From Lachnospiraceae bacterium (GTDB lineage: Bacteria; Bacillota; Clostridia; Lachnospirales; Lachnospiraceae): a stretch of 47,162 nt of DNA. Location of the stretch: contig JALFHZ010000127.1 of assembly GCA_022776445.1 (NCBI GenBank), positions 1 to 47,162 on the forward strand, in the 5' to 3' direction. Below are positions 6,612 through 21,359 of the stretch, in pieces. Made by a program: the position numbers and the translations under genes. Every line of letters begins with the position of its first letter. Positions within the stretch are counted from its first letter, which is position 1. Below the pieces are notes generated by a model that was not told the origin of the DNA, did not search any database, and saw only the letters and a program-made list of their open reading frames with translations.

Positions 6612-8123
6612 ATGGAAATGAAGAAACAATGGAACAGAAAGACAGGCCGGGGCGTGGCAGTTCTGGCGGCAGCGGGATTTCTGATTGCAGGAATGGTATG
6701 CGGGTGCAGCAGGCAGACCGGTACGGAGCAGTCCTCCGGGGCGGTATCGACAGAAGAATCGACGATAGCTCCGTCGAAGCCGGAGACAAAGGAGAGCACG
6801 GAGTCGGAGAAACCGTCCCGGGAACCGGAGTCTACGATCGCATCGTTCCCCGGAGAGACGGAAGAGGAGCCGCAGGAAACAGAAACGGAGACGGAAGAAT
6901 TTCCGGAAGAGGAAGCGGAGGTTTCGATTCTGACTGCGACCGACATTCATTATCTTTCTCAGGAACTGACGGACGGCGGGAATCATTTCCAGTACATGGT
7001 AGAGCATGGTGACGGAAAGATAGTGACCTATATCGACCAGATTACCGACGCGTTTGTGGAAGAGACGATCCGCCGCAGTCCGGATGTGCTGATTCTCAGC
7101 GGGGATCTGACGCTGGACGGTGAGAAGCAGAGCCATCAGGAACTGGCCCGGAAGCTGGAGAAAATTGAAGAGAATGGTATCACGGTGCTGGTGGTTCCGG
7201 GCAATCATGATATCAACAATCACCATGCGGCAAGGTTTAAGGGGGATGAGCGCCTTCCGGCGGAATTTACCACACCGGAGGAATTCCGAGAAATCTACCG
7301 CCATTTTGGATACGACGAGGCAATCAGCGAGGATCCGACATCGCTCAGCTATGTCTATGAACTGGATGACGACACCTGGTTTCTGATGCTGGATTCCTGC
7401 CAGTACAAACAGAAGGCACTGGTAGGCGGCGCCATTTTGTCGGATACTTATGACTGGATTGAGAGGATGCTGGAGGAGGCCTGGGATACCGGTGCTGATG
7501 TGATACCGGTGGCGCATCACAACCTGCTGGATGAGAGCGAGATTTATGTGGATGACTGCACGATTGAACACTCGGAGCAGCTGGTGGAGATGCTGGAGGA
7601 GTGGGATGTTCCGTTATTTTTGAGCGGGCATCTTCATGTGCAGCATACGAAGCAGTCTGAGGATGGAAGGGGCATCTGGGAGATGGTGACCAGTTCCCTG
7701 GCAACACCGGCCTGCCAGTTTGGAATATTGTCCTATTGGCACGGCGGCAGTTTCGCTTACCGGACCGCACAGCTGGACGTGCAGGACTGGGCAAAGCGCC
7801 ATAACCGGAAAGAGCAGGATCTGCAGGAATTTGACCGTTTTAAGGGACCGTTTTTGAGGCGGGTATTTTATAATCAGTCTTACGATGCGCTGAGCAGGAT
7901 TGATACTTTGAGCGAGGATCAGCGGCTGCGGATGTCCAATCTGTATTCGGATCTGAATTACCATTATTATCAGGGAACCGCATACAAGATCCGGGATGCA
8001 GTGCTGAAAAATCCGGATTACCAGCTTTGGATGGGGGATGGATATTCCTCGATTCTGGCGGATTATGTGCAGTATATTATCCGTGATGCGGAGCGGGATT
8101 ACAACAAAGTGCGTGAAGATTAA
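6612..8123 (+). CDS. Metallophosphoesterase lipoprotein
   Basis: A predicted lipoprotein (signal segment then VCGC lipobox near residue 35) with an acidic Ser/Thr/Glu linker to about residue 105, then a calcineurin-like phosphoesterase domain. Metal-binding motifs appear in order: DIH (TATDIHYLS), GDLTLDGE, GNHD (VVPGNHDINNHH), a histidine in PVAHHNLL, and GHLHVQH. This is the complete two-metal site. A C-terminal helical region of about 120 residues follows. The substrate is unknown; related secreted enzymes cleave phosphodiesters or phosphomonoesters in the envelope. ATG 6612 is used; ATG 6618 is equally possible, because AAAGGAAG lies 4 and 10 bp upstream respectively. It sits 29 bp after the GH18 gene, so cotranscription is likely. 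Confidence 0.88.
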   Translation: MEMKKQWNRKTGRGVAVLAAAGFLIAGMVCGCSRQTGTEQSSGAVSTEESTIAPSKPETKESTESEKPSREPESTIASFPGETEEEPQETETETEEFPEEEAEVSILTATDIHYLSQELTDGGNHFQYMVEHGDGKIVTYIDQITDAFVEETIRRSPDVLILSGDLTLDGEKQSHQELARKLEKIEENGITVLVVPGNHDINNHHAARFKGDERLPAEFTTPEEFREIYRHFGYDEAISEDPTSLSYVYELDDDTWFLMLDSCQYKQKALVGGAILSDTYDWIERMLEEAWDTGADVIPVAHHNLLDESEIYVDDCTIEHSEQLVEMLEEWDVPLFLSGHLHVQHTKQSEDGRGIWEMVTSSLATPACQFGILSYWHGGSFAYRTAQLDVQDWAKRHNRKEQDLQEFDRFKGPFLRRVFYNQSYDALSRIDTLSEDQRLRMSNLYSDLNYHYYQGTAYKIRDAVLKNPDYQLWMGDGYSSILADYVQYIIRDAERDYNKVRED

Positions 8124-9220: not shown

Positions 9221-9967
9221 TCAGGAAATACCATTGGTCGCCAGAATGGAGCATGGCTGATCCAGGGTAAACGGCTCGCCGTCGATGGTGGTCACCTTAC
9301 CGCCGGCCTCCTGACAGATCAGTGCGGCAGCAGCATAATCCCATGGGGAAAGCTTCAGTTCAAAGAAAAGCTCTGTGCGTCCGGCGGCAACGGAGCAGAT
9401 ATCGATAGCAGCAGAACCGCTTCTTCTCAAATCCATGGCCTGTTTGAAATAGTGGAACGCCAGTTCAAACGCTTTCTGATGGAGGTCTTCGTAATACGGA
9501 GAGGTTCCGAACATGATAATGCCCTGAGAAAGCGGTTTGTCGGATACGTGAATCGGACGGCCGTTTAAAAAGGCACCGTGCCCCTGTTCTGCTGTGTACA
9601 TTTCGTCCAGGTACGGGTTATAAACGACGCCGATCCAGGGCTCACCGTCTCTGGTCAGACCGACGGAGACACAGCTGGCGCGATAGTCTTTAATAAAATT
9701 GGTGGTTCCATCGATGGGGTCTACGATGAAAGCATGACCGTGTCGAATGGAAGCATGAATATCTTCTTCTTCGCCGACGAATGCGGCATCCGGAAGAATG
9801 CTCAGAAGCTGGTTCTGCAGCATGGTCTGGATTTTTTTGTCGTAAGTGGTCACGAAGTTTGCGTGTCCGGATTTTTCGTCAATCATGGAATCGTCCCGCC
9901 GGGCATCCAACATGACCTGACCGCAGGTGCGGACCACGGTGACGATCTGTTCTGTCAGTGTCTGCAT
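9221..9967 (-). CDS. Inositol monophosphatase family phosphatase
   Basis: Predicted Mg2+-dependent, lithium-sensitive-type sugar/inositol phosphate phosphatase. It has the three family signatures: GEE (residues about 66-68), DPIDGTTNFI (metal and phosphate site, near residue 84) and SPWDYAAAALICQEAGG (near residue 206). The length (248 aa) is normal. The ATG at 9967 has AAGGAG seven bases upstream, so the in-frame ATG 30 bp earlier, which overlaps the regulator stop, is rejected. It starts 22 bp after the LacI/SBP regulator gene and is probably in its operon. Its substrate may therefore be a phosphorylated compound imported by the neighbouring ABC transporter; this is inference. Confidence 0.9.
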   Translation of the reverse strand: MQTLTEQIVTVVRTCGQVMLDARRDDSMIDEKSGHANFVTTYDKKIQTMLQNQLLSILPDAAFVGEEEDIHASIRHGHAFIVDPIDGTTNFIKDYRASCVSVGLTRDGEPWIGVVYNPYLDEMYTAEQGHGAFLNGRPIHVSDKPLSQGIIMFGTSPYYEDLHQKAFELAFHYFKQAMDLRRSGSAAIDICSVAAGRTELFFELKLSPWDYAAAALICQEAGGKVTTIDGEPFTLDQPCSILATNGIS

Positions 9968-9989
9968 GGCAATACTCCTTGTTCTTTTA

Positions 9990-12206
9990 TTATACATATT
10001 TGCACTGGAAGTTTTGTTCCATCATTTCCTGAGCGTTTTTCAGCGCTTCCTCTGGCGTGATCACGCTGCTGTAGGCGTTTTTCACTGCCATACCCAGAAT
10101 GCCTAAAAATTTTCTTTCATCAAACGGAGTTCCGATGTGATCCGGAATACGTCTGCCCTGGACAAGCGGAAAGCATTTTTTGCACAGGCTCATCCATGGG
10201 AAGTTGTGCATCACTTCGTAGTTTTCGTATGTTTTCCGGCAGGGCGAGATGCTTCCGAGCAATGCGGCAGCGGAAGAAATCGGCTCGCTGCAGATCCAGC
10301 GGATAAAGGACAGCGCATCTTCCGGATGGGCAGAGTGTTTGGAGATACCAAGGCTGCCGCCGCCGATAATCGGATTGGCACCCGGCATCATAGTGAAGCC
10401 GATCTTGCCGATGATATTGGATGAGTGGCTTAAAAGGTCGCTGGCATAGTTGCTGTAGAGCGGAGCCATGGCAAATCCGCCGTCCGCGAAGTTCCTGGCG
10501 GTATTGATCCACCAGTTGCAGTAATTGGCAGCTGTATATTTCCGAATCTCGATCAGATCTTTTAATGCACGCAGAGCGGTATCGGAATCCAGATGGATTT
10601 CCAGATTGCTGTCATACAGATTTGCCTGATAACTGAACAGTCTGGAAAGATATTCAGAACCGGCAACACCCGTAGAACCCATGGTGATGGTCGTGCCGTA
10701 CTCGACCGGCGACAGGGGATTGATGGAACGGGTGAAGAAAGATGCAATGCGGTTGAACTCTTCGAAGGTCTTTGGCGGAACCAGCTCTGTGCGGAACTGT
10801 TCATAATACATCCGCTTGTAAATCGGGCTTTCAAACAGATCCTTGCGATAATACAGCAGTTGAACACTTGGGGTAGCCGGCAGCGTATAGATCTGACCGT
10901 GTACTCTGGCATAATACTGCGGCGTGCCTTCAATGAAACTGTCCAGCAGATTTTCAATATCCGGATCGATATCGGTCAGCGGCATCAGAAGCTTTTCCGC
11001 GAACCAGGAAAGCCAGGTCACATCCAGACGCAGTACATCAAAATGCCGGGATGCGGACAGGGAATTGTAGGCTTCGTAAATCTCATCATATGAGTAAATG
11101 CAGATATTGACATCTACATTGCTTTTTTGCGTGTACAGTTTGGAAAAACTTCGCATAATGTGTGCTTCCGGGCTGTCCAGCGTGATGACATTCAGGGTTT
11201 TTCGTCTCCCGGAGACAAGAATATTGGAATACCAGTTGCGAAAACCGTCGCTTTTCAGAATCTGGCAGGAAGGCTCTTCTTTCGAAGCAGCGGCCTGCCT
11301 GCGAATCAGGTATTCTGCGGCGATTTTGCCCAGCTGGCGGTAGTTCATCTCATATTTTGTAAAAACATTTTCCGGCAGGGTAAATACCGGGGAAACGGTA
11401 TAGATCCTCGGCAGGTGATCGCTTTGATAAAAGGTAGTGCAGAGATCCTTGACATTTTCCGCAAAAGCGTAATTGGAAATAAAAAACGCCTGGGGCATCG
11501 GTCCGTTGAATACCTGCATGATGTGCTGATATCTGCGGAACGGGTCTGTCTGGATGTGGGTAACCCGGCAGGCAGATGGATTCATAATATCCATGAAGCC
11601 GTGATAGAAATCGGATTCATTGGAATATTCCAGATTGGCTGTCAGGAGACATACGTGGCTGAGGTGTTGAGCCAGAGCTTTGCCTGCCATCTGCCGCCCG
11701 GCTTCTCTGTAGTCAAATCCGATGAAATCTGCCGGGAAACCCGGCTTACGATCGATGAACACCATGTGGGGCAGTTCGTCATAATGGCTGTTTTTCTGGT
11801 AAATGGCGCTTTCGTTGGAAGTTCCGGCCACAGCGGAGACGCATGCAATACCTTTTGCCTGCAGGGGACGGATTTCTGAAAGAGCGTCCTCCTCGCTGCC
11901 GGGTGTATTTTCATTGATCAGAAAACGGGTCGTCTTATATCCGTGATCGGAAGCATAGCTTTTGAAACTGAGATAGAAATCATCATATTGTCTGGCTCGG
12001 GAGTCCGGCATGATGACGACCAGAGAGTCACTGTACCCTTTGCGCAGCAGGGCCGCTTTCTCATTCGGCACATATCCCAGAGCATGAGCAGCGTCCAGTA
12101 CGCGCTTGATTTTCTCGCTGCTGACATTCCCCTTGTCGTTCAGTACATTGGAAACGGTTCCCTGTGCGACTCCGGCTAATTTTGCAATATCTTTGATTGT
12201 AACCAT
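9990..12206 (-). CDS. LacI-family regulator fused to a full ABC solute-binding-protein domain
   Basis: Residues 1-50 are a LacI helix-turn-helix (TIKDIAKLAGVAQGTVSNVL, then hinge VPNEKAALLRKG). About 60-320 is a LacI-type periplasmic-binding-like effector domain. About 337-738 is a second, unrelated ligand-binding domain resembling family 1 extracellular sugar-binding proteins, with the typical DVLRLDVTWL, YTLPATPSVQLLYYRKDLF and GGGSLGISKHSAHPEDAL features. There is no signal peptide, so this binding-protein domain must act in the cytoplasm. The total length of 738 residues is about twice a normal LacI protein. The ATG at 12206 follows AGGGG; an in-frame GTG at 12212 overlaps that site. It is divergent from an ABC binding-protein gene whose promoter carries a LacI-type palindrome. 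Confidence 0.9.
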   Translation of the reverse strand: MVTIKDIAKLAGVAQGTVSNVLNDKGNVSSEKIKRVLDAAHALGYVPNEKAALLRKGYSDSLVVIMPDSRARQYDDFYLSFKSYASDHGYKTTRFLINENTPGSEEDALSEIRPLQAKGIACVSAVAGTSNESAIYQKNSHYDELPHMVFIDRKPGFPADFIGFDYREAGRQMAGKALAQHLSHVCLLTANLEYSNESDFYHGFMDIMNPSACRVTHIQTDPFRRYQHIMQVFNGPMPQAFFISNYAFAENVKDLCTTFYQSDHLPRIYTVSPVFTLPENVFTKYEMNYRQLGKIAAEYLIRRQAAASKEEPSCQILKSDGFRNWYSNILVSGRRKTLNVITLDSPEAHIMRSFSKLYTQKSNVDVNICIYSYDEIYEAYNSLSASRHFDVLRLDVTWLSWFAEKLLMPLTDIDPDIENLLDSFIEGTPQYYARVHGQIYTLPATPSVQLLYYRKDLFESPIYKRMYYEQFRTELVPPKTFEEFNRIASFFTRSINPLSPVEYGTTITMGSTGVAGSEYLSRLFSYQANLYDSNLEIHLDSDTALRALKDLIEIRKYTAANYCNWWINTARNFADGGFAMAPLYSNYASDLLSHSSNIIGKIGFTMMPGANPIIGGGSLGISKHSAHPEDALSFIRWICSEPISSAAALLGSISPCRKTYENYEVMHNFPWMSLCKKCFPLVQGRRIPDHIGTPFDERKFLGILGMAVKNAYSSVITPEEALKNAQEMMEQNFQCKYV

Positions 12207-12393: not shown

Positions 12394-12422
12394 TTGACAC
12401 GTTTCAAAATCGATGTTATAAT
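12394..12422 (+). promoter_or_regulatory. Consensus promoter of the ABC transporter operon with LacI-type operator
   Basis: TTGACA (12394-12399), 17-bp spacer, TATAAT (12417-12422): both boxes perfect. The operator-like palindrome TTGACACGTTTCAA (12394-12407) covers the -35 box. It is symmetric about a central CG except at one base pair, as expected for a LacI-family site. It fits the CcpA cre consensus poorly. A bound repressor would block the promoter. The obvious candidate is the divergent LacI/SBP fusion. Confidence 0.75.
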
Positions 12423-12466: not shown

Positions 12467-13843
12467 ATGAAAAAGAAAGTAGCATTAGCACTGGCATCCA
12501 CCATGATGGTATCAGCAGCAGTGAGCGGATGCGGTAACAGCGGCCGGGCAGTGGCCCCGGAAACCAAGGCACCGGAGAATCAGGCAGAGACGACGGCAGC
12601 TTCGGCGGCGACAGAAGCAGCAAGCAAAGATGCTTTGCATCTGACTTTCTATTACCCGGTTAACGTAGGCGGAGATGCGGCAAAGCTGATGGAGAAGATT
12701 TGCGCAGATTTCAACAAGGAGAATCCGGATATCGTGGTAGAGCCGGTTTACACTGGTAACTATGATGATACTGTAACAAAGATTCAGACAGCTATGCAGG
12801 GCGGAACTCCGCCGGATGTATTTGTAAGCCTGGCAACCCAGCGTTTCACCATGGCATCTACCGGTATGGCAATGCCGCTGGATGATCTGATCGCTGCTGA
12901 TGGGGACGAAGGAAAGGCATATATTGATGATTTCCTGGATGGGTTTATGGAAGATTCTTATGTAGACGGCAAGATTTATTCCATCCCGTTCCAGAGAAGT
13001 ACGGAGATTCTGTATTATAATAAGGATGCATTCAAGGAGGTTGGTCTGGATCCGGAGAAGGCACCGGAGTCCTGGGATGAACTGGTTGAGTATGGTCAGA
13101 AACTGACTAATGACAATCGCTATGGTGTAGGTATTGCACTGAACTCCGGTTCTGCACAGTGGACGTTCACCGGTTTCTGCTTACAGAACAGCGCCAACGG
13201 TGAGAACCTGGCGACGGAAGATGGCAAGACTGCTCTGTTCAACACTCCGGAGAACGTAGAGGCTCTGCAGTTTTGGCTGGATCTTCAGAATAAGTACAAA
13301 ATCATGGCTCCGGGTATCGTACAGTGGACCGATCTGCCGACGCAGTTCCTGGCAGGCGAGGTTGCTATGATATATCATACGACCGGTAACCTGGCAAATA
13401 TCAGCAAGAATGCTGATTTCGAGTTTGGTACCGCATTCCTTCCGGGAAACAAGAGAATGGCAGCTCCGACTGGCGGCGGAAATTTTTATATCTCCAACGG
13501 AATTTCAGAAGATCGTGTACAGGCTGCATGGAAATTTATTAAATTTGCAACGTCAACAGAGTGTGCGGCACAGTGGGCATTGGATACTGGTTATGTAGCA
13601 ACCAGAGAATCCTGCTTTGAGACAGATCTGCTTAAGAAATATTATGAGGATCTGCCGCAGGCAAAGACCGCTTATGAGCAGATTGCAGTTTCCAAACCGG
13701 AGCTGACCACTTACAATGCAGCAGAAATGTGGAGAATTTTGAATGATAATATTCAGGCAGCAGTGGTTGGTGACGCAACGGCAGAAGAAGCACTGGCGAA
13801 TGCCCAGGAAGAGGCTGATGCAGTTCTGGAAGAGTATCAGTAA
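12467..13843 (+). CDS. ABC transporter sugar-binding lipoprotein (family 1)
   Basis: A signal peptide with lipobox VSGC (cysteine at residue 22) anchors the protein outside the membrane. A Thr/Ala/Glu-rich linker follows, and from about residue 55 a family 1 solute-binding fold: LTFYYPVNVGGDAAKLMEKI, then GGTPPDVFVSL, YSIPFQRSTEILYYNKDAF, and the WDELVEYGQKL helix. The length (458 aa) fits binding proteins for sugars or glycerophosphodiester-like ligands. The ribosome binding site AAAGGAGG is strong. It is the first gene of the operon and is followed by a 12-bp hairpin that probably favours its higher expression. The ligand cannot be told from sequence. Confidence 0.93.
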   Translation: MKKKVALALASTMMVSAAVSGCGNSGRAVAPETKAPENQAETTAASAATEAASKDALHLTFYYPVNVGGDAAKLMEKICADFNKENPDIVVEPVYTGNYDDTVTKIQTAMQGGTPPDVFVSLATQRFTMASTGMAMPLDDLIAADGDEGKAYIDDFLDGFMEDSYVDGKIYSIPFQRSTEILYYNKDAFKEVGLDPEKAPESWDELVEYGQKLTNDNRYGVGIALNSGSAQWTFTGFCLQNSANGENLATEDGKTALFNTPENVEALQFWLDLQNKYKIMAPGIVQWTDLPTQFLAGEVAMIYHTTGNLANISKNADFEFGTAFLPGNKRMAAPTGGGNFYISNGISEDRVQAAWKFIKFATSTECAAQWALDTGYVATRESCFETDLLKKYYEDLPQAKTAYEQIAVSKPELTTYNAAEMWRILNDNIQAAVVGDATAEEALANAQEEADAVLEEYQ

Positions 13844-13917: not shown

Positions 13918-14823
13918 ATGAGGACTATGAAAACATATACAAAAGAGCAGCGGGCACGCAGACAGAATGTCACAGCATGGTTACTGGTTGCGCCGGCTTT
14001 GACTTTTATGCTGGTTTTTACCGTATACCCGATTTTTCGAAGCATTTATTTGAGCTTGACCAATTATAAACTTGGTATGCAGGCACCGGAGTTTGCCGGG
14101 CTTGCGAATTATACAAAATTGATGGGATCCAAATTGTTCTGGAAGGTCATGGGCAATACTCTTTATTTCGCATTGATCACCATTGTTCCGAGTATGATTG
14201 GCGGTCTGTTTCTGGCAGTACTGGTCAATCGTAAAAGCCGCGCGACCGGTTTCATTCGTACTTCTTTTTTCTATCCGGCAGTTATGCCGATGATTGCGAT
14301 TGCAAGTATCTGGATGTTTATTTATATGGCAAAGAACGGTCTGTTTGATCAGATGCTGATCAGTCTGGGTTTTGAACCCATGAACGTGCTTTCTAATAAG
14401 AAGACGGTTCTCCCGGCGATGGCTGTCATGTATGTGTGGAAGGAAGCAGGATATCTGATGGTATTTTTCCTGTCTGGTATTCAGGGTATTTCAGAAGACG
14501 TGATGGAGGCAGCAAGAATCGATGGAGCCAATGCCTGGACGGTATTCCGTAAGATTACGCTTCCGCTTCTGGCACCGACGTTCCTTTTCGTGTCAACAAT
14601 CGCGCTGACCAACAGCTTTAAACTGGTAGATCATGTGGTAATCATGACTGAGGGTGCACCGAGCAACGCATCAACACTTCTGTTGTATTATATTTATCAG
14701 CAGGGATTTACGAACTTTAACTATGGGCTTTCTTCTGCTTTGACGACAATTATGCTCGTTCTGCTTATGATTGTGGCACTTCCAAGATTCTTAAGTCAGG
14801 ATAAGAAGATTCATTACAATTAA
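13918..14823 (+). CDS. ABC sugar transporter permease (MalF/UgpA type)
   Basis: An integral membrane subunit with six predicted helices, the first at LLVAPALTFMLVFTVYPIF. The cytoplasmic EAA loop that contacts the ATPase is present as EAARIDGANAWTVFRKITLP (near residue 200). The length (301 aa) is normal. ATG 13918 is close to its AGGGG site, so the ATG at 13927 (MKTYTKEQ) may be the real start. It pairs with the next permease. No ATPase gene lies in the cluster, so a shared MsmK/UgpC-type ATPase encoded elsewhere is implied, as is common in Firmicutes. Confidence 0.92.
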   Translation: MRTMKTYTKEQRARRQNVTAWLLVAPALTFMLVFTVYPIFRSIYLSLTNYKLGMQAPEFAGLANYTKLMGSKLFWKVMGNTLYFALITIVPSMIGGLFLAVLVNRKSRATGFIRTSFFYPAVMPMIAIASIWMFIYMAKNGLFDQMLISLGFEPMNVLSNKKTVLPAMAVMYVWKEAGYLMVFFLSGIQGISEDVMEAARIDGANAWTVFRKITLPLLAPTFLFVSTIALTNSFKLVDHVVIMTEGAPSNASTLLLYYIYQQGFTNFNYGLSSALTTIMLVLLMIVALPRFLSQDKKIHYN

Positions 14824-14837
14824 GGAGGATGTGTAAG

Positions 14838-15656
14838 ATGAATAAGAAAATCCTGAATACCGGTATTACCGTATTTTCAATCCTTCTGGGATTGTTGTGG
14901 CTGATCCCTCTGGTATGGCTGATTGGGACGGCATTTTCCGTGCCGAGTTTTCACATGACGCTGTTTCCTACGACTGCGTTTACGCTGGATAATATTTACT
15001 ATGTCTGGAACGCGGTTCCGTTTGGAACCTATTATATCAATACGCTGACTCTGGTTATTGTTACCTTTGTCGTACAGTTTGTGACTTCCACGATGGCGGC
15101 TTATGCGCTGGCGGTGATGGATTTCAAAGGGGCGACGCTGGTATTCGCTGTGATCTTTATGCAGATTATCATTCCGAATGATGTACTGATCACACCGAAC
15201 TTCATGACTCTGGCAGATCTGAAGCTGGTAGACACCAAGCTGGGAATCATGCTTCCGTTTTTTGGAAGCGCTATGGCGATTTTCCTGCTTCGTCAGCATT
15301 TCAAGACGATTCCGAAGGCACTTGCGGAAGCGGCCAGAATTGACGGTGCAACGACCTGGCAGACGATCTGGAAGGTATATATGCCGCTGGCAAAGCCGGC
15401 GTATCTTTCCTTTGCCGTCATTTCTGTCAGCTATCACTGGAATAACTATCTGTGGCCGCTGATTGTTACCAATTCTCCGGAAAACCGTACACTGACGGTC
15501 GGGCTGGCGATTTTTGCCAAATCCAAAGAGGCCAATATGCAGTGGGCGAATGTCTGCGCGGCAGCGTTTATCATTATCCTTCCGCTTCTTCTGGCGTTCT
15601 TTGTGGCCCAGAAACAGTTTATGAGCAGCTTTGTAAGTGCAGGTGTCAAAGAGTAA
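14838..15656 (+). CDS. ABC sugar transporter permease (MalG/UgpE type)
   Basis: Second membrane subunit of the importer. It has about six helices and the EAA loop EAARIDGATTWQTIWKVYMP (near residue 185). The ATG at 14838 is nine bases after GGAGG; the ATG at 14829 abuts that site and is rejected. The length is 272 residues. It is 14 bp downstream of the first permease and 22 bp ahead of the hydrolase gene, so all belong to one transcript. Confidence 0.92.
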   Translation: MNKKILNTGITVFSILLGLLWLIPLVWLIGTAFSVPSFHMTLFPTTAFTLDNIYYVWNAVPFGTYYINTLTLVIVTFVVQFVTSTMAAYALAVMDFKGATLVFAVIFMQIIIPNDVLITPNFMTLADLKLVDTKLGIMLPFFGSAMAIFLLRQHFKTIPKALAEAARIDGATTWQTIWKVYMPLAKPAYLSFAVISVSYHWNNYLWPLIVTNSPENRTLTVGLAIFAKSKEANMQWANVCAAAFIIILPLLLAFFVAQKQFMSSFVSAGVKE

Positions 15657-15678
15657 AACAGGCTGGAGGTTTTTGCAT

Positions 15679-16368
15679 ATGAAATGGAACTTTCTGGGAA
15701 AAGGCTGTGCGTTTTATCCGCTGTACGGCAATACGTGCGCCTATTTCGTACATAATAGAGAATTATATATGCTGGACTGCGGGGAGTCTGCATTTGAACA
15801 GTTATACAAAAGAATTCATCTGGATGAGATAGAACGTGCATATGTGATCGTGACACATCTGCATGCGGATCATGTAGGGAGTCTGGGAACGCTGATTTCC
15901 TATTTCTACTGTGTACTGCATAAGCCGGTGTACGTGATTCATCCGGAGACTACCATTGTAGATCTGCTGACACTGGAAGGGATTGATAAGAAAGGGTATC
16001 AGTATTGTATGCTGCTCCCGGATAACGGTGCAGGCTTAAGTGCCGATCCGGTTCCGGTAACCCATGCGGAAGATATGAAATGTTATGGATATCTGCTTCG
16101 TGACCGTGAGGAATGTCTGTTCTACAGCGGCGATTCTTCTATGGTACCGGAGAAGGTGCGGGAGATGTTCCTTGCGGGTGAAGTGGATCGGATCTATCAT
16201 GATACATCGACCCATGATTCCGAGCATCCGTCTCATTGTTATTATGGAAAGCTGGAGCAGATCATTCCGCGGGAAAAACGCGGGCAGTTCTACTGCATGC
16301 ACCTGGACAGTCCGTGTGAGGAACTGTTGATGGAGAAGGGCTTCCGGGTGGTGGAAGTGGAGAAGTAG
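15679..16368 (+). CDS. Metallo-beta-lactamase-fold hydrolase linked to the ABC importer
   Basis: A 229-residue cytoplasmic protein with the zinc signature THLHADHVGS (H60, H62, D64, H65) and later metal ligands in YSGDSS and MHLD. The overall length and pattern resemble RNase Z/phosphodiesterase-like members rather than true beta-lactamases. GGAGG lies nine bases before ATG 15679; longer versions would overlap the permease. As the last gene of an ABC import operon, with a phosphatase linked to the regulator, it may cleave a phosphodiester or cyclic phosphate of the imported compound. That role is inference; the fold and metal site are seen. Confidence 0.85.
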   Translation: MKWNFLGKGCAFYPLYGNTCAYFVHNRELYMLDCGESAFEQLYKRIHLDEIERAYVIVTHLHADHVGSLGTLISYFYCVLHKPVYVIHPETTIVDLLTLEGIDKKGYQYCMLLPDNGAGLSADPVPVTHAEDMKCYGYLLRDREECLFYSGDSSMVPEKVREMFLAGEVDRIYHDTSTHDSEHPSHCYYGKLEQIIPREKRGQFYCMHLDSPCEELLMEKGFRVVEVEK

Positions 16369-17519: not shown

Positions 17520-18233
17520 ATGATATCAGATCAGAGAGCTCCTGTAATTAAGGATTATCCAACACTTCAGGAAAATATATATGCAACCTTGAAGGGGCAG
17601 ATTTGCTTGTTAGAACGTGTACCAGGGACAATTATGAGTGCAACGGATATTGCTCAATCTATGGCACTTTTAATGCAGAGAACAGTAAGCAGAACTCCAG
17701 TGAGAGAAGCCTTTCTTCAGCTTGCAAAAGAAGGATTAGTAGAGTTAAGACCACAATTTGGCACAGTTGTGACAAAGATAGATAGAAATCGTGCTTTAGA
17801 AGAACGATATGTGAGATATACATTGGAACATGATAATTTAAAGGATTTCATGGATAAGGTAAACGAAGCTGACTACGAGGAATTTGAAGAGATAATAAGT
17901 AAACAAAAGGCAGCAAACGAAGACGGTAAAAATCTCCAATATATTGAATTGGATAATATATTCCACCATAAGCAGTTTTATATTAGCGGTCATGTTTTGT
18001 GTTTGGATATTATTACAACATATAATAGCCATTATGATCGTCTGAGAAACCTGACAACATGGGATAAGGGTAATGTGAAAAAATCTATTGCTCAGCATGA
18101 AGAATTGGTAAAAGCTTTTCGCAAAAAAGATTTAACTGGGGCACAGGAAATATTAAAAATCCATTTGGGCAAACTGCTTGATGAGGAGAAGGAATTATAT
18201 TTTAAATATCCCGAATATTTTTTAAATGAATAA
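17520..18233 (+). CDS. GntR-family regulator (FadR/FCD subfamily)
   Basis: A 237-residue DNA-binding protein. An N-terminal winged helix-turn-helix (residues about 15-85) has the characteristic VSRTPVREAFLQLAKEGLVEL and the wing PQFGTVV. It is followed by an all-helical FCD-type ligand domain with candidate metal ligands in ELDNIFHHKQFY, SIAQHEELVKAF and ILKIHL. FCD members usually bind carboxylates such as sugar acids and release DNA when bound. GGAGG lies six bases before the ATG. It is flanked by an esterase and a TRAP operon, and both promoters carry the TAACATGTTA pair, so it is the probable repressor of both. Confidence 0.88.
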   Translation: MISDQRAPVIKDYPTLQENIYATLKGQICLLERVPGTIMSATDIAQSMALLMQRTVSRTPVREAFLQLAKEGLVELRPQFGTVVTKIDRNRALEERYVRYTLEHDNLKDFMDKVNEADYEEFEEIISKQKAANEDGKNLQYIELDNIFHHKQFYISGHVLCLDIITTYNSHYDRLRNLTTWDKGNVKKSIAQHEELVKAFRKKDLTGAQEILKIHLGKLLDEEKELYFKYPEYFLNE

Positions 18234-18245
18234 TTGTTTTATTTC

Positions 18246-18285
18246 AAAGACTTGTAATTAGGTATTTTCTAGTTGCAAGTCTTTT
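18246..18285 (+). terminator. Terminator after the gntR-type gene
   Basis: AAAGACTTGTAATTA (18246-18260) pairs with TAGTTGCAAGTCTTT (18270-18284) with two G-T pairs, and ends in TTTT. Confidence 0.7.
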
Positions 18286-18384
18286 GTTGTATCGTGATTT
18301 GCTCTACAGGCATAGTTGTTTGTACATTATGAATATAATTTCTAATTAGAAACAGTGCAATATAACGAAATGAGTCCTTTGGTC

Positions 18385-18413
18385 TTGACATTGACACATC
18401 AATAAAGTATGCT
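18385..18413 (+). promoter_or_regulatory. Promoter of the TRAP transporter operon
   Basis: TTGACA (18385-18390), 17-bp spacer, TATGCT (18408-18413). A second TTGACA directly follows the first (18391-18396). The operator pair starts five bases after the -10 box, the same geometry as at the esterase promoter. Confidence 0.7.
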
Positions 18414-18417
18414 AATG

Positions 18418-18440
18418 TAACATGTTAATGAAACATGTCA
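18418..18440 (+). promoter_or_regulatory. Tandem palindromic operator at the TRAP promoter
   Basis: A perfect TAACATGTTA (18418-18427), a three-base spacer ATG, and a weaker copy AAACATGTCA (18431-18440). The spacing of 13 bp matches the pair at 17355-17377. Confidence 0.72.
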
Positions 18441-18500
18441 GATAATAAAAGGGCCCGATAATATCAAAATGAAATTAAGGTATGAAGGAAGGAAAAAATA

Positions 18501-19541
18501 ATGAGAAAATTTTTTATCAGCACAGTGGTAGCGCTTGGCTGCATTGCTTTAACTGCATGTGGAAATAGTAGTTCGTCAACTTCTGCTGATCAGTCAGCAA
18601 ACACAGGTAAACAGGAAGCGGCAGTCTCAAGTGAAAAAATAACTCTCAAGTTTGGAAATACCGCAGGGGAGGAGGATATTCAGACAATTGCGCTTAGAGA
18701 TGTAGCAGAGCGTCTCGAAAAGGAAAGTAACGGACGCATTGTTGCAGAGGTTTATCCAAGTTCTTCATTGGGAGATACGGATGATCTGACAGAACAGGCG
18801 ATGCAGGGTGCTGCTATTTTAACCGTTTCAGATCCCAGCCGTCTTGCATCGTTTGTAAATGATTATGGCATGCTTCAGATGCCATACATTTTTGATGACT
18901 ACTCTGGTTTGGATAAGGTTATGAAGACGGCTCTTTATGATGAGTGGAAAAAGCAATTTGCTGATCAGGGAATTTGGCTGATTACGTCTAACTGGTTTAG
19001 CGGAACAAGAAACTTTTGCTTAAATAAAGAAATAAAAAATCCAGAAGATCTGACAGGTCAGAGAATCAGAACAATAGGTAATGATCTCTGTACCAGTTCT
19101 GTAAATGCTATGGGAGCAGTTGCGACTCCTATGAGCTGGAGCGAGGTTTACACTTCCATTCAGCAAAAAGCGCTTGATGGTGCTGAAGTTCAGACCCCAT
19201 CTTTCTATGCTACTCGTTTGTGGGAGGTAACAAAGTACATCAATAAGACAGAGCATTTTCAGCTGATTGGTTCTGTAGTAACAGGTACAAAATTCCGTGA
19301 CAGCTTAAGTAAAGAAGATCAGGAGCTGGTTGAGCGTATCTTCAGAGAAGTAGGTACAGAGTATCAGGCTAAATGTATCGAGATGAGTGATAACTATGAG
19401 AAAGAGATGGTTGAAAAGTATGGAGTTATCATTAATAACGATGTGAATATTCAGGCATTTAAGGATGCAACTGCACCTGTATATGCACAGTTGGGATATG
19501 AAGATGTTAAAGAGGAACTGATGAAAGAAATGGCACAGTAA
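18501..19541 (+). CDS. dctP: TRAP transporter solute-binding lipoprotein (DctP family)
   Basis: Extracytoplasmic binding protein of a tripartite ATP-independent transporter. A signal peptide ends in lipobox LTAC (cysteine near residue 20). Then comes a Ser/Thr-rich linker and a DctP fold from about residue 45 (LKFGNTAGEEDIQTIALRDV). The carboxylate-binding arginine region is present in SGTRNFCLNKEIKNPEDL and GQRIRT, and the long hinge helix lies in MSWSEVYTSIQQKALDGAEV. TRAP systems import organic acids, including sugar acids and sialic acid, using an ion gradient. It is the first gene of dctPQM and is probably controlled by the neighbouring GntR protein. Confidence 0.93.
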   Translation: MRKFFISTVVALGCIALTACGNSSSSTSADQSANTGKQEAAVSSEKITLKFGNTAGEEDIQTIALRDVAERLEKESNGRIVAEVYPSSSLGDTDDLTEQAMQGAAILTVSDPSRLASFVNDYGMLQMPYIFDDYSGLDKVMKTALYDEWKKQFADQGIWLITSNWFSGTRNFCLNKEIKNPEDLTGQRIRTIGNDLCTSSVNAMGAVATPMSWSEVYTSIQQKALDGAEVQTPSFYATRLWEVTKYINKTEHFQLIGSVVTGTKFRDSLSKEDQELVERIFREVGTEYQAKCIEMSDNYEKEMVEKYGVIINNDVNIQAFKDATAPVYAQLGYEDVKEELMKEMAQ

Positions 19542-19573
19542 GATGGAGTGTTGGAATTAAAGGAGAGTTTATT

Positions 19574-20050
19574 ATGAAAACAGTTTACCGTAATTTTTGC
19601 AAATGGGAGGAATATTTATGTTGTACAATGTTTTTTTCCATGGTTGTATTGGTCCTCTGTTCTGCCATTGCTCGCTTGATAAACCATCCTTTGGCATGGA
19701 GCATTGATGTTGCTCAGTTATTACTTGCTTGGACTTGTTTTATAGGCGCAGATGTAGCATTTCGACGAGATAAATTAGTTGGTTTAGATTTATTTACGCG
19801 TAAATTGCCGCAAAAAGTTGCACAGATCATATCCTTAGTTATTAAGGTCATAATGCTTAGCGCACTGGTAATATTTATCGTTTATGGAGTAAGGTTGAGT
19901 GTTGAGAGCTGGAAACGATCTTTCCAGACCTTAACAATAAGTTATTCTTTTGTAACTTTAAGTTTGCCGGTTGCTTCTTTTCTAATGAGCATAACAGCAA
20001 TTATTAAAATTGTGGATTCAGTAAAAATGATTTTAAATATTGCTGAGTGA
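19574..20050 (+). CDS. dctQ: TRAP transporter small membrane subunit (DctQ family)
   Basis: A 158-residue protein with four predicted membrane helices. The family pattern ARLINHPLAWSIDVAQLLLAWTCFIGADVAFRRD is split across helices one and two, and the conserved W-C-F-GA and R residues are visible. It connects the binding protein with the large permease. AAAGGAG precedes the ATG. It lies 32 bp after dctP. Confidence 0.92.
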   Translation: MKTVYRNFCKWEEYLCCTMFFSMVVLVLCSAIARLINHPLAWSIDVAQLLLAWTCFIGADVAFRRDKLVGLDLFTRKLPQKVAQIISLVIKVIMLSALVIFIVYGVRLSVESWKRSFQTLTISYSFVTLSLPVASFLMSITAIIKIVDSVKMILNIAE

Positions 20051-20066
20051 TGCTGGGGGTATAAAA

Positions 20067-21359
20067 ATGAGCGTATTATTAATAACATTTGTAGTTTTAT
20101 TGGTTATCGGAATGCCGGTATCCTTTGTAATTGGGTTATCAGGACTGGCTTTTTTTGCGGTAACACCTGATATTCCATTTTCTATTACGGTACAGCGTAT
20201 TGTAGCACAGACACAGTCCTACTCATTTTTGGCAGTTCCATTTTTTATATTTGCAGGAAATCTGATGAATGAATCCGGAATTACAAAGAGATTGTTAGGA
20301 CTGGCATCCATACTAACTAGGAGAATGTATGGCGGTATGGCCCAGGTCTCTGTTGTTATGAGTACTTTAATGGGTGGAGTATCTGGATCTGCAACAGCAG
20401 ATGCTGCTATGGAAACTCGAATCTTAGGACCCGAAATGATGAAACGCGGATATACAAAAGGGTATATTACTGCGGTGAACTGTTTAACCGGTCTTATAAC
20501 AGCTACGATCCCTCCCAGCTTGGGGCTAATATTGTATGGATTTATCGGAGAAGTTTCGATTGGACGATTATTCTGTGCCGGAATGGTACCGGGTGTATTG
20601 ATGATGACTGTATTGATGCTTACAGTTAATATTACAAGCCGTGTCAGGGGGTTTGAGAAACCGAATTCTGAGATACCTAAAGTAACAGTATCTGAAATAA
20701 CTGAGAATCTTAAGGAGTCTATTTGGGCATTAATGTTCCCTGTGATATTAATTGTTGGAATTAGATTTGGTGTCTGTACACCGTCTGAGGCCGGTGCATT
20801 TGCAGTATTTTATGCTATAATTGTAGGAGCATTTGTATATCATGAGTTTTCTATTAAGGGATTTGTTGAAGCATTGAAGACTTCCATGATTGATACAGCT
20901 GCAGTCATGCTGATTGTAACATTATCAGGTCCTTTTAGTTACTCTGTGACATATGTCAATTTGCCACAGAAACTTTCAACCTTTATTTTCGGAATTACAA
21001 ACAATCCGCAGCTTTTGGTTATTATTATTCTGCTGTTCTTGTTTGTAATGGGAATGTTCTTGGACAGCAATGTGAATTTCCTGTTACTGACGCCAATTTT
21101 CCTTCCGATGGTCACAAAATTAGGAGTAGATCCAGTTCATTTCGGTGTTTTAATGGCGACCATTGTCACTATGGGAGTTATGACACCTCCGGTTGGTTCA
21201 GCACTTTACACTGTTTGCGGAATCCTGGAATGTCCAATTGAAGAATATACGAAGGAAGCTTTGCCATTTTTCCTTGCGATTCTGTTAGAAATGATTGTTT
21301 TGGTATTCTTGCCAGATATTGTATTGTTCCTGCCAAATCTTGTTTACGGAACTTATTAA
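20067..21359 (+). CDS. dctM: TRAP transporter large permease (DctM family)
   Basis: A 430-residue integral membrane transporter with about twelve helices. It has DctM signatures: GMPVSFVIGLSGLAFF at the N-terminus, PFFIFAGNLMNESGI, GGVSGSATADAAM, and TPPVGSALYTVCGI near the C-terminus. ATG 20067 follows a GGGGG stretch; the longer frame from 20040 overlaps dctQ and has no site. It is the last transporter gene of the TRAP operon and is followed by an esterase gene 50 bp later. Confidence 0.93.
   Translation: MSVLLITFVVLLVIGMPVSFVIGLSGLAFFAVTPDIPFSITVQRIVAQTQSYSFLAVPFFIFAGNLMNESGITKRLLGLASILTRRMYGGMAQVSVVMSTLMGGVSGSATADAAMETRILGPEMMKRGYTKGYITAVNCLTGLITATIPPSLGLILYGFIGEVSIGRLFCAGMVPGVLMMTVLMLTVNITSRVRGFEKPNSEIPKVTVSEITENLKESIWALMFPVILIVGIRFGVCTPSEAGAFAVFYAIIVGAFVYHEFSIKGFVEALKTSMIDTAAVMLIVTLSGPFSYSVTYVNLPQKLSTFIFGITNNPQLLVIIILLFLFVMGMFLDSNVNFLLLTPIFLPMVTKLGVDPVHFGVLMATIVTMGVMTPPVGSALYTVCGILECPIEEYTKEALPFFLAILLEMIVLVFLPDIVLFLPNLVYGTY

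Follow-up and report, generated by a model that had tools for sequence, protein, structure and literature searches.

A LacI-type regulator with an appended solute-binding-protein domain and a predicted operator at the divergent Ugp-like import operon of a Lachnospiraceae bacterium

LysR-type and ModE-like regulators use a type II binding-protein fold as a cytoplasmic sensor. In their usual setting, binding proteins serve importers; one paper describes that UgpB proteins bind glycerol 1- and 3-phosphate, with phosphate contacts through Tyr64, Ser143, Ser266, and Tyr342, and that glycerophosphocholine and a dinucleotide are ligands of close relatives (PMC12718374). Here, we present an analysis of a gene in a 47,162-nucleotide stretch of DNA from a Lachnospiraceae bacterium (assembly GCA_022776445.1, contig JALFHZ010000127.1; the window), which encodes a LacI-type regulator fused to a complete solute-binding protein (SBP) domain and lies divergent from a Ugp-like import operon (Table 1). 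We suggest that this LacI-SBP fusion is a LacI repressor with a C-terminal sugar/polyol-type binding domain and that the import operon is derepressed when the appended domain binds a phosphate-containing polyol, a reading to which we assign a probability of roughly 0.65.

The N-terminus of the window protein matches the LacI helix-turn-helix with 55 bits compared with a Pfam cut-off of 27, and this domain is present in all 46 rows examined; in the hinge-like segment that follows, A51 and L54 are invariant in 77 rows. By profile, the core matches CcpA at 3.6e-40 and also LacI and PurR; moreover, Peripla_BP_4 matches 31 of 46 rows at E 0.001, and strands and helices alternate in the structure model of the core. 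The assignment as a type I core is weakened by the finding that the core of the window protein, taken alone, falls below the Pfam cut-offs. A fold search with the whole model returned only binding-protein folds among the matches listed and thus did not confirm the LacI core. For the solute-binding domain, the same approach recovered the full fold, with 373-385 residues aligned to CUT1 structures. Neither an export signal nor a lipoprotein box was found in the fusion, which starts with the helix-turn-helix and has a largest 19-residue hydropathy mean of 1.15, and we infer that the regulator is cytoplasmic. Altogether, domain, profile, and fold searches confirm the original prediction that a LacI helix-turn-helix, a LacI effector domain, and a binding-protein domain are joined in one frame without a signal peptide. 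A scan of named genomes with a binding-domain alignment gave 476 relatives, of which 80 loci, retrieved with two short patterns from the binding-protein half, were kept; the LacI helix-turn-helix and the full layout are found in 76 of them. An assembly artefact or a missing stop codon was rejected based on these 76 loci and on copies in complete Escherichia coli plasmids. The same data, together with the grouping of the fused domains in one clade (95/90), speak against a chance fusion or a decaying remnant without joint function, in favor of which nothing was found and which we consider negligible.

LacI proteins prefer operators with a central CG, and the predicted operator TTGACACGTTTCAA is an imperfect palindrome with this feature. 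It overlaps the promoter-like sequence of the importer operon; a promoter scan returned two sites in total, which is not above the shuffle mean of 1.5, and the notable part is the match at 12 of 12 consensus positions. The link to the divergent binding-protein/permease operon in the original prediction is supported, and a conserved site that overlaps the promoter of this operon strengthens it. In the 3.16-Mb assembly (87.6% complete), the operator pattern has a single occurrence, and the reversed control pattern is absent. Of 77 fusion genes, 17 have the exact site on their 5′ side and 53 a looser form, compared with 1.5 for the looser form in shuffles. Over whole loci, TTGANACG[TA]NNNAA is present in 67 of 80 fusion loci, 0 of 20 ordinary LacI loci, and 1 to 10 of 80 shuffled loci. 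The strongest point for an operator is the position of the site relative to the transporter. Of 39 loci with a divergent transporter, 33 have the looser site at a distance from the regulator start (three of the 33 also have a near site); of 17 loci with a downstream transporter, 11 have it close to that start. A site upstream of the regulator is present in 4 of 11 convergent loci, in none of 4 loci with a same-strand upstream transporter, and in 3 of 5 others. A whole-length check of 27 loci revealed a TTGA-type site in 22. In convergent or same-strand loci such as L061, L064, L066, L078, L080, L085-L087, L089, and L090, the site precedes the transporter binding-protein gene, and in L098 and L100 a TTGA-type site precedes a GDPD gene. 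Among the 27 loci, L062, L067, L073, L075, and L084 lack a TTGA-type site over their whole length, and L060, L071, and L088 have a TTGACA-oriented site without an assigned gene within 450 bases. TTGA-type sites are also present in L034, L035, and L036. A CcpA cre site was considered as a candidate and rejected by eye because its half-site spacing, in what we take to be the cre consensus, differs from that of TTGACACGTTTCAA. LacI relatives such as CcpA can activate transcription, and some loci carry two or three sites, as could be expected if the fusion were an activator or a dual regulator. However, in the window the site lies over the −35 box of a consensus promoter, and 36 of 44 cases show promoter spacing; this is the usual geometry for repression, and we consider an activating or dual role quite improbable.

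Residue conservation bears on which of the two potential ligand-binding modules would sense the inducer. In the binding domain, the pocket-type residues D395 (75/77), Q449 (75/77), W566 (77/77), and G616 (77/77) hardly vary, although the loci differ in their type of transporter, and S447 and Y373 are kept in 67 and 58 of 77 rows, respectively. The core diverges fastest: 99.6% of 2926 pairs are more distant in the core than in the binding-protein part, a comparison that leans to the binding-protein half because the loci were retrieved with patterns from this half. At position 200, which was placed by eye and which we take to be the place of the usual effector Arg (RxxGF motif) in sugar-binding LacI regulators, 64 of 77 rows have Phe and no row has Arg, making a classical sugar input in the core less likely. 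With a conserved binding half and a fast-diverging core lacking the effector Arg, one sensor may suffice, and the dual-input control suggested originally would be the less likely arrangement. In a dual-input regulator, the core and the binding-protein domain would have a ligand each, such as the diester before and after processing, and full induction would require both. This arrangement agrees with the retention of both modules in 76 of 80 loci, with their correlated distances (r 0.91), and with P67 and E105 of the core being kept in 77 of 77 rows; weighed against the low conservation of the core and the missing Arg, we regard it as unlikely. In another scenario, the binding-protein domain is a docking or oligomerization module rather than a small-molecule sensor; it might, for example, touch a transporter subunit or an enzyme, and the state of transport would be relayed by protein contact. 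Here, we note that the nearest solved LacI relatives of the core by profile are CcpA proteins and that CcpA works with a protein partner. However, it is usually on the extracellular side that the docking face of binding proteins contacts permeases, and the near-invariance of the four pocket-type residues irrespective of transporter type also renders this scenario improbable. Two alignments via the operon protein, with the Phaeobacter numbering transferred by eye, place Tyr373 and Ser447 at the positions of Tyr64 and Ser143 of UgpB. Where Tyr342 would fall (residues 652-653, placed by eye), no more than 5 of 77 rows have Tyr, and the counterpart of Ser266 is ambiguous. Based on these counterparts and the lack of a clear Tyr342, binding of glycerol phosphate by the fused domain is suggested only.

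The neighborhoods of 47 loci of at least 15 kb were compared with those of 20 ordinary LacI genes. GDPD, metallo-beta-lactamase (MBL), or metallophosphoesterase clusters are near 40 of 47 fusions and 1 of 20 controls, importer genes near 45 of 47 and 10 of 20, and MgtC near 19 of 47 (25 of 80 loci overall) and 0 of 20; because the neighbor profiles were made from fusion loci, these contrasts are inflated to some degree. The transporter types vary and include Ugp-like importers, SBP_bac_6/8 proteins with two-part permeases, which we label Afu-like, tripartite TctAB transporters in a few loci, and an MFS nucleoside-type symporter. Despite this variation, the fused domain is one lineage. A maximum-likelihood tree was built from 52 fused domains (that of the window and 51 from the 76 loci), 25 Ugp-type binding proteins (that of the window plus 24 taken in order from 28 rows longer than 380 residues), and 4 other proteins. 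All fused domains fall together on one side of a branch (95/90; one change in 94% of bootstrap trees); the tree tool warns of long branches. L106, L108, and L117 are the deepest branches among the fusions. This single branch and the correlation between LacI core and binding-domain distances (over 2926 pairs) fit joint inheritance after one fusion. We rejected the candidate that the fused domain was copied from the binding protein of the local transporter because the fused clade stands apart from the operon binding proteins (95/90). The nearest outside row is L144, a binding protein from another genome of the phylum that may be related to the source of the fused module. L144 (8173-9546) is unfused, has a signal-peptide-like start, and is, among the unfused binding proteins found here, the closest to the fused domain (224 bits).

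In a search of 61 genomes, full-length copies, 66-67% identical, were found in five genomes of the same genus, and more distant copies (24-45% over aligned rows) in one more genome of this genus, another genus, and other families. According to record titles, carriers of the layout include Clostridium citroniae, Hungatella hathewayi, Blautia, Lachnoanaerobaculum, Paenibacillus, Bacillus, Treponema, Breznakiella, Gilliamella, and a Calditrichales bacterium. As a rough frequency, matches were obtained in 29 of 299 genomes (298 genera) of the same family at E 1e-40 and in 3 of 398 genomes of the phylum at 1e-60, one of the three being the unfused L144 of genome G201; scoring was limited to at most 6 candidates per genome in the family and 4 in the phylum. 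Among plasmid records, 51 matches were found at E 1e-20 (48 Escherichia, 2 Proteus, and 1 Rhizobium), 50 of which extend over at least 80% of the protein. The E. coli gene, the product of which is itself LacI plus SBP_bac_1, is present in 46 of 5426 complete genomes, on plasmids in 44 and on chromosomes in 2. It is labelled "extracellular solute-binding protein" in 19 of 20 plasmid matches listed and 15 of 15 complete-genome matches listed. On the E. coli plasmid NZ_AP027681.1 (L146, 7849-13175), the fusion is divergent from genes for an MBL hydrolase, an MFS nucleoside-type symporter, and MgtC. In this module, which was not used for motif discovery, TTGACACGTTCCAA lies between the regulator and the MBL gene and is oriented to the MBL gene; the promoter scan gave no match on this site. 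The MBL, MFS, and MgtC families also occur near the Paenibacillus fusions L104, L105, and L107, and MBL and MFS near the Gilliamella fusion L112.

In our model, the regulator bound to TTGACACGTTTCAA would cover the −35 box and hold the divergent importer operon off. Once the imported compound enters the cytoplasm, the appended domain would close around it, and the closed domain would act via the LacI core to free the DNA. For the window, the ligand would most likely be a phosphate-containing polyol, with glycerol phosphate, glycerophosphodiesters, and cyclic phosphodiesters as examples. Tentatively, and with somewhat less than even confidence, we extend this model to a widespread class of one-component regulators that arose when a nutrient-capture protein was joined to a LacI repressor and that has moved horizontally. 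In this class, the capture module would have taken over sensing, the LacI core would mainly serve as a dimer scaffold, and a single sensor lineage with closely related operators would serve Ugp-type, Afu-type, MFS, and perhaps tripartite importers, mostly for phosphate-containing compounds.

Several observations weigh against these proposals. DNA binding, repression rather than activation, sensing by the binding-protein domain, and the chemical class of the ligand are deduced from sequence data, and clear counterparts are present for only two of the four phosphate contacts of UgpB. Thirteen of 80 loci are without the site (three of these are cut by contig ends); the stretch examined has no site in 6 of 17 loci with a downstream transporter and 5 of 39 divergent loci, with 4/11 convergent and 0/4 upstream-transporter loci containing it. 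Because TTGACA is the −35 consensus, part of the motif conservation has a different cause. Seven genomes from the same order or family supplied the 20 controls, one representative per cluster of the fusion-derived neighbor profiles was Pfam-named, and related loci are non-independent. The Ugp-type binding protein by itself is not enriched (22/47 versus 6/20, p 0.16), L144 adjoins genes that by eye resemble sugar metabolism, and 19 of 80 loci have no phosphoesterase match. Loci without such a match include those with tripartite transporters (L096, L116, and L121) and L106, L108, L113, L117, and L119, which have URO-D and BPD_transp_2 genes. Together with L037-L041 (genomes G036 and G037, four in G036), these last five loci carry more distant LacI-SBP proteins; most of them adjoin genes for URO-D-family proteins and BPD_transp_2 permeases, phosphoesterase matches are lacking, and a second substrate class is likely.

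Table 1. Features of the fusion regulator and its surroundings in the window
Feature	Coordinates	Strand	Remarks
LacI-SBP fusion regulator	9990..12206	-	738 residues, one frame from ATG to stop
LacI helix-turn-helix, residues 3-48	12063..12200	-	followed by hinge-like segment to about residue 58
Divergent LacI-type effector/dimer core, about residues 59-320	11247..12032	-	profile versus CcpA, LacI, and PurR
Complete CUT1-type solute-binding domain, residues 331-738	9993..11216	-	no export signal seen
Predicted operator TTGACACGTTTCAA	12394..12407	+	overlaps −35 box
Promoter-like TTGACA-17-TATAAT of importer operon	12394..12422	+	12/12 consensus positions
UgpB-like solute-binding protein	12467..13843	+	lipoprotein-like N-terminus (by eye); below NCBIfam UgpB cut-off
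UgpA-like permease	13918..14823	+	below NCBIfam cut-off
UgpE-like permease	14829..15656	+	below NCBIfam cut-off
MBL-fold hydrolase	15637..16368	+	weakly PhnP-like (37 bits versus cut-off of 272)
Inositol-monophosphatase-family enzyme	9221..9997	-	5′ end overlaps 3′ end of regulator gene by 8 bases

The MBL gene of the window may start at the ATG at 15679, from which two of three compared homologues align; the third aligns from 15637. Elsewhere in the window, 6612-8123 encodes a calcineurin-like phosphoesterase whose C-terminal domain is of the cyclic-nucleotide phosphodiesterase type and which has, by eye, a signal-like start, and 17520-21359 holds a regulator-like open reading frame (17520, by eye) next to TRAP transporter genes that include DctP (18501) and DctM (20040). 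A different LacI fusion is present in L042 (1946-3763), where a 606-residue frame combines the helix-turn-helix and a Peripla_BP_3 core with a C-terminal glucosamine-6-phosphate isomerase-like domain.

If correct, our model implies that whole nutrient-binding proteins have been re-used as cytoplasmic sensors inside a classical repressor, and it predicts an operator and a regulon across several bacterial groups. It would also correct the misleading label of these proteins and offer a natural template for biosensors; the E. coli copy makes the regulator directly testable in a laboratory strain. A literature search, which did not cover most subscription journals or any bioRxiv preprints, found no paper on a LacI-SBP fusion. 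This fits the statement in the original prediction that no characterized protein with this layout is known. In databases, however, such proteins are no rarity and belong to a large family. Sensors with a binding-protein fold are known, a LacI repressor with an added complete binding protein was not found in the literature searched, and the family is large, mislabelled, and partly mobile.

The fusion shares with the LacI/GalR regulators CcpA, LacI, and PurR the helix-turn-helix, the hinge, the type I periplasmic-binding-like core, and a predicted operator with a central CG; it differs by the additional type II binding-protein domain of 400 residues and by a core without what we presume to be the usual effector Arg. 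Like the CUT1 proteins (5iai, MalE3 6dtq, SmoF 7ofy, and the trehalose/maltose protein 1eu8), the fused domain has the full fold and conserved pocket-type residues; unlike them, it lacks an export signal, is joined to a DNA-binding repressor, and is itself no transport component. The Ugp system is reflected in the divergent operon, which is Ugp-like though below the NCBIfam cut-offs, and, by eye, in the Tyr64 and Ser143 counterparts; however, the fused domain forms a clade separate from the operon binding proteins and has no clear counterpart of Tyr342. Finally, compared with LysR-type and ModE-like regulators, the DNA-binding family is a different one, and the type II domain has been added to a regulator that already bears a type I core.
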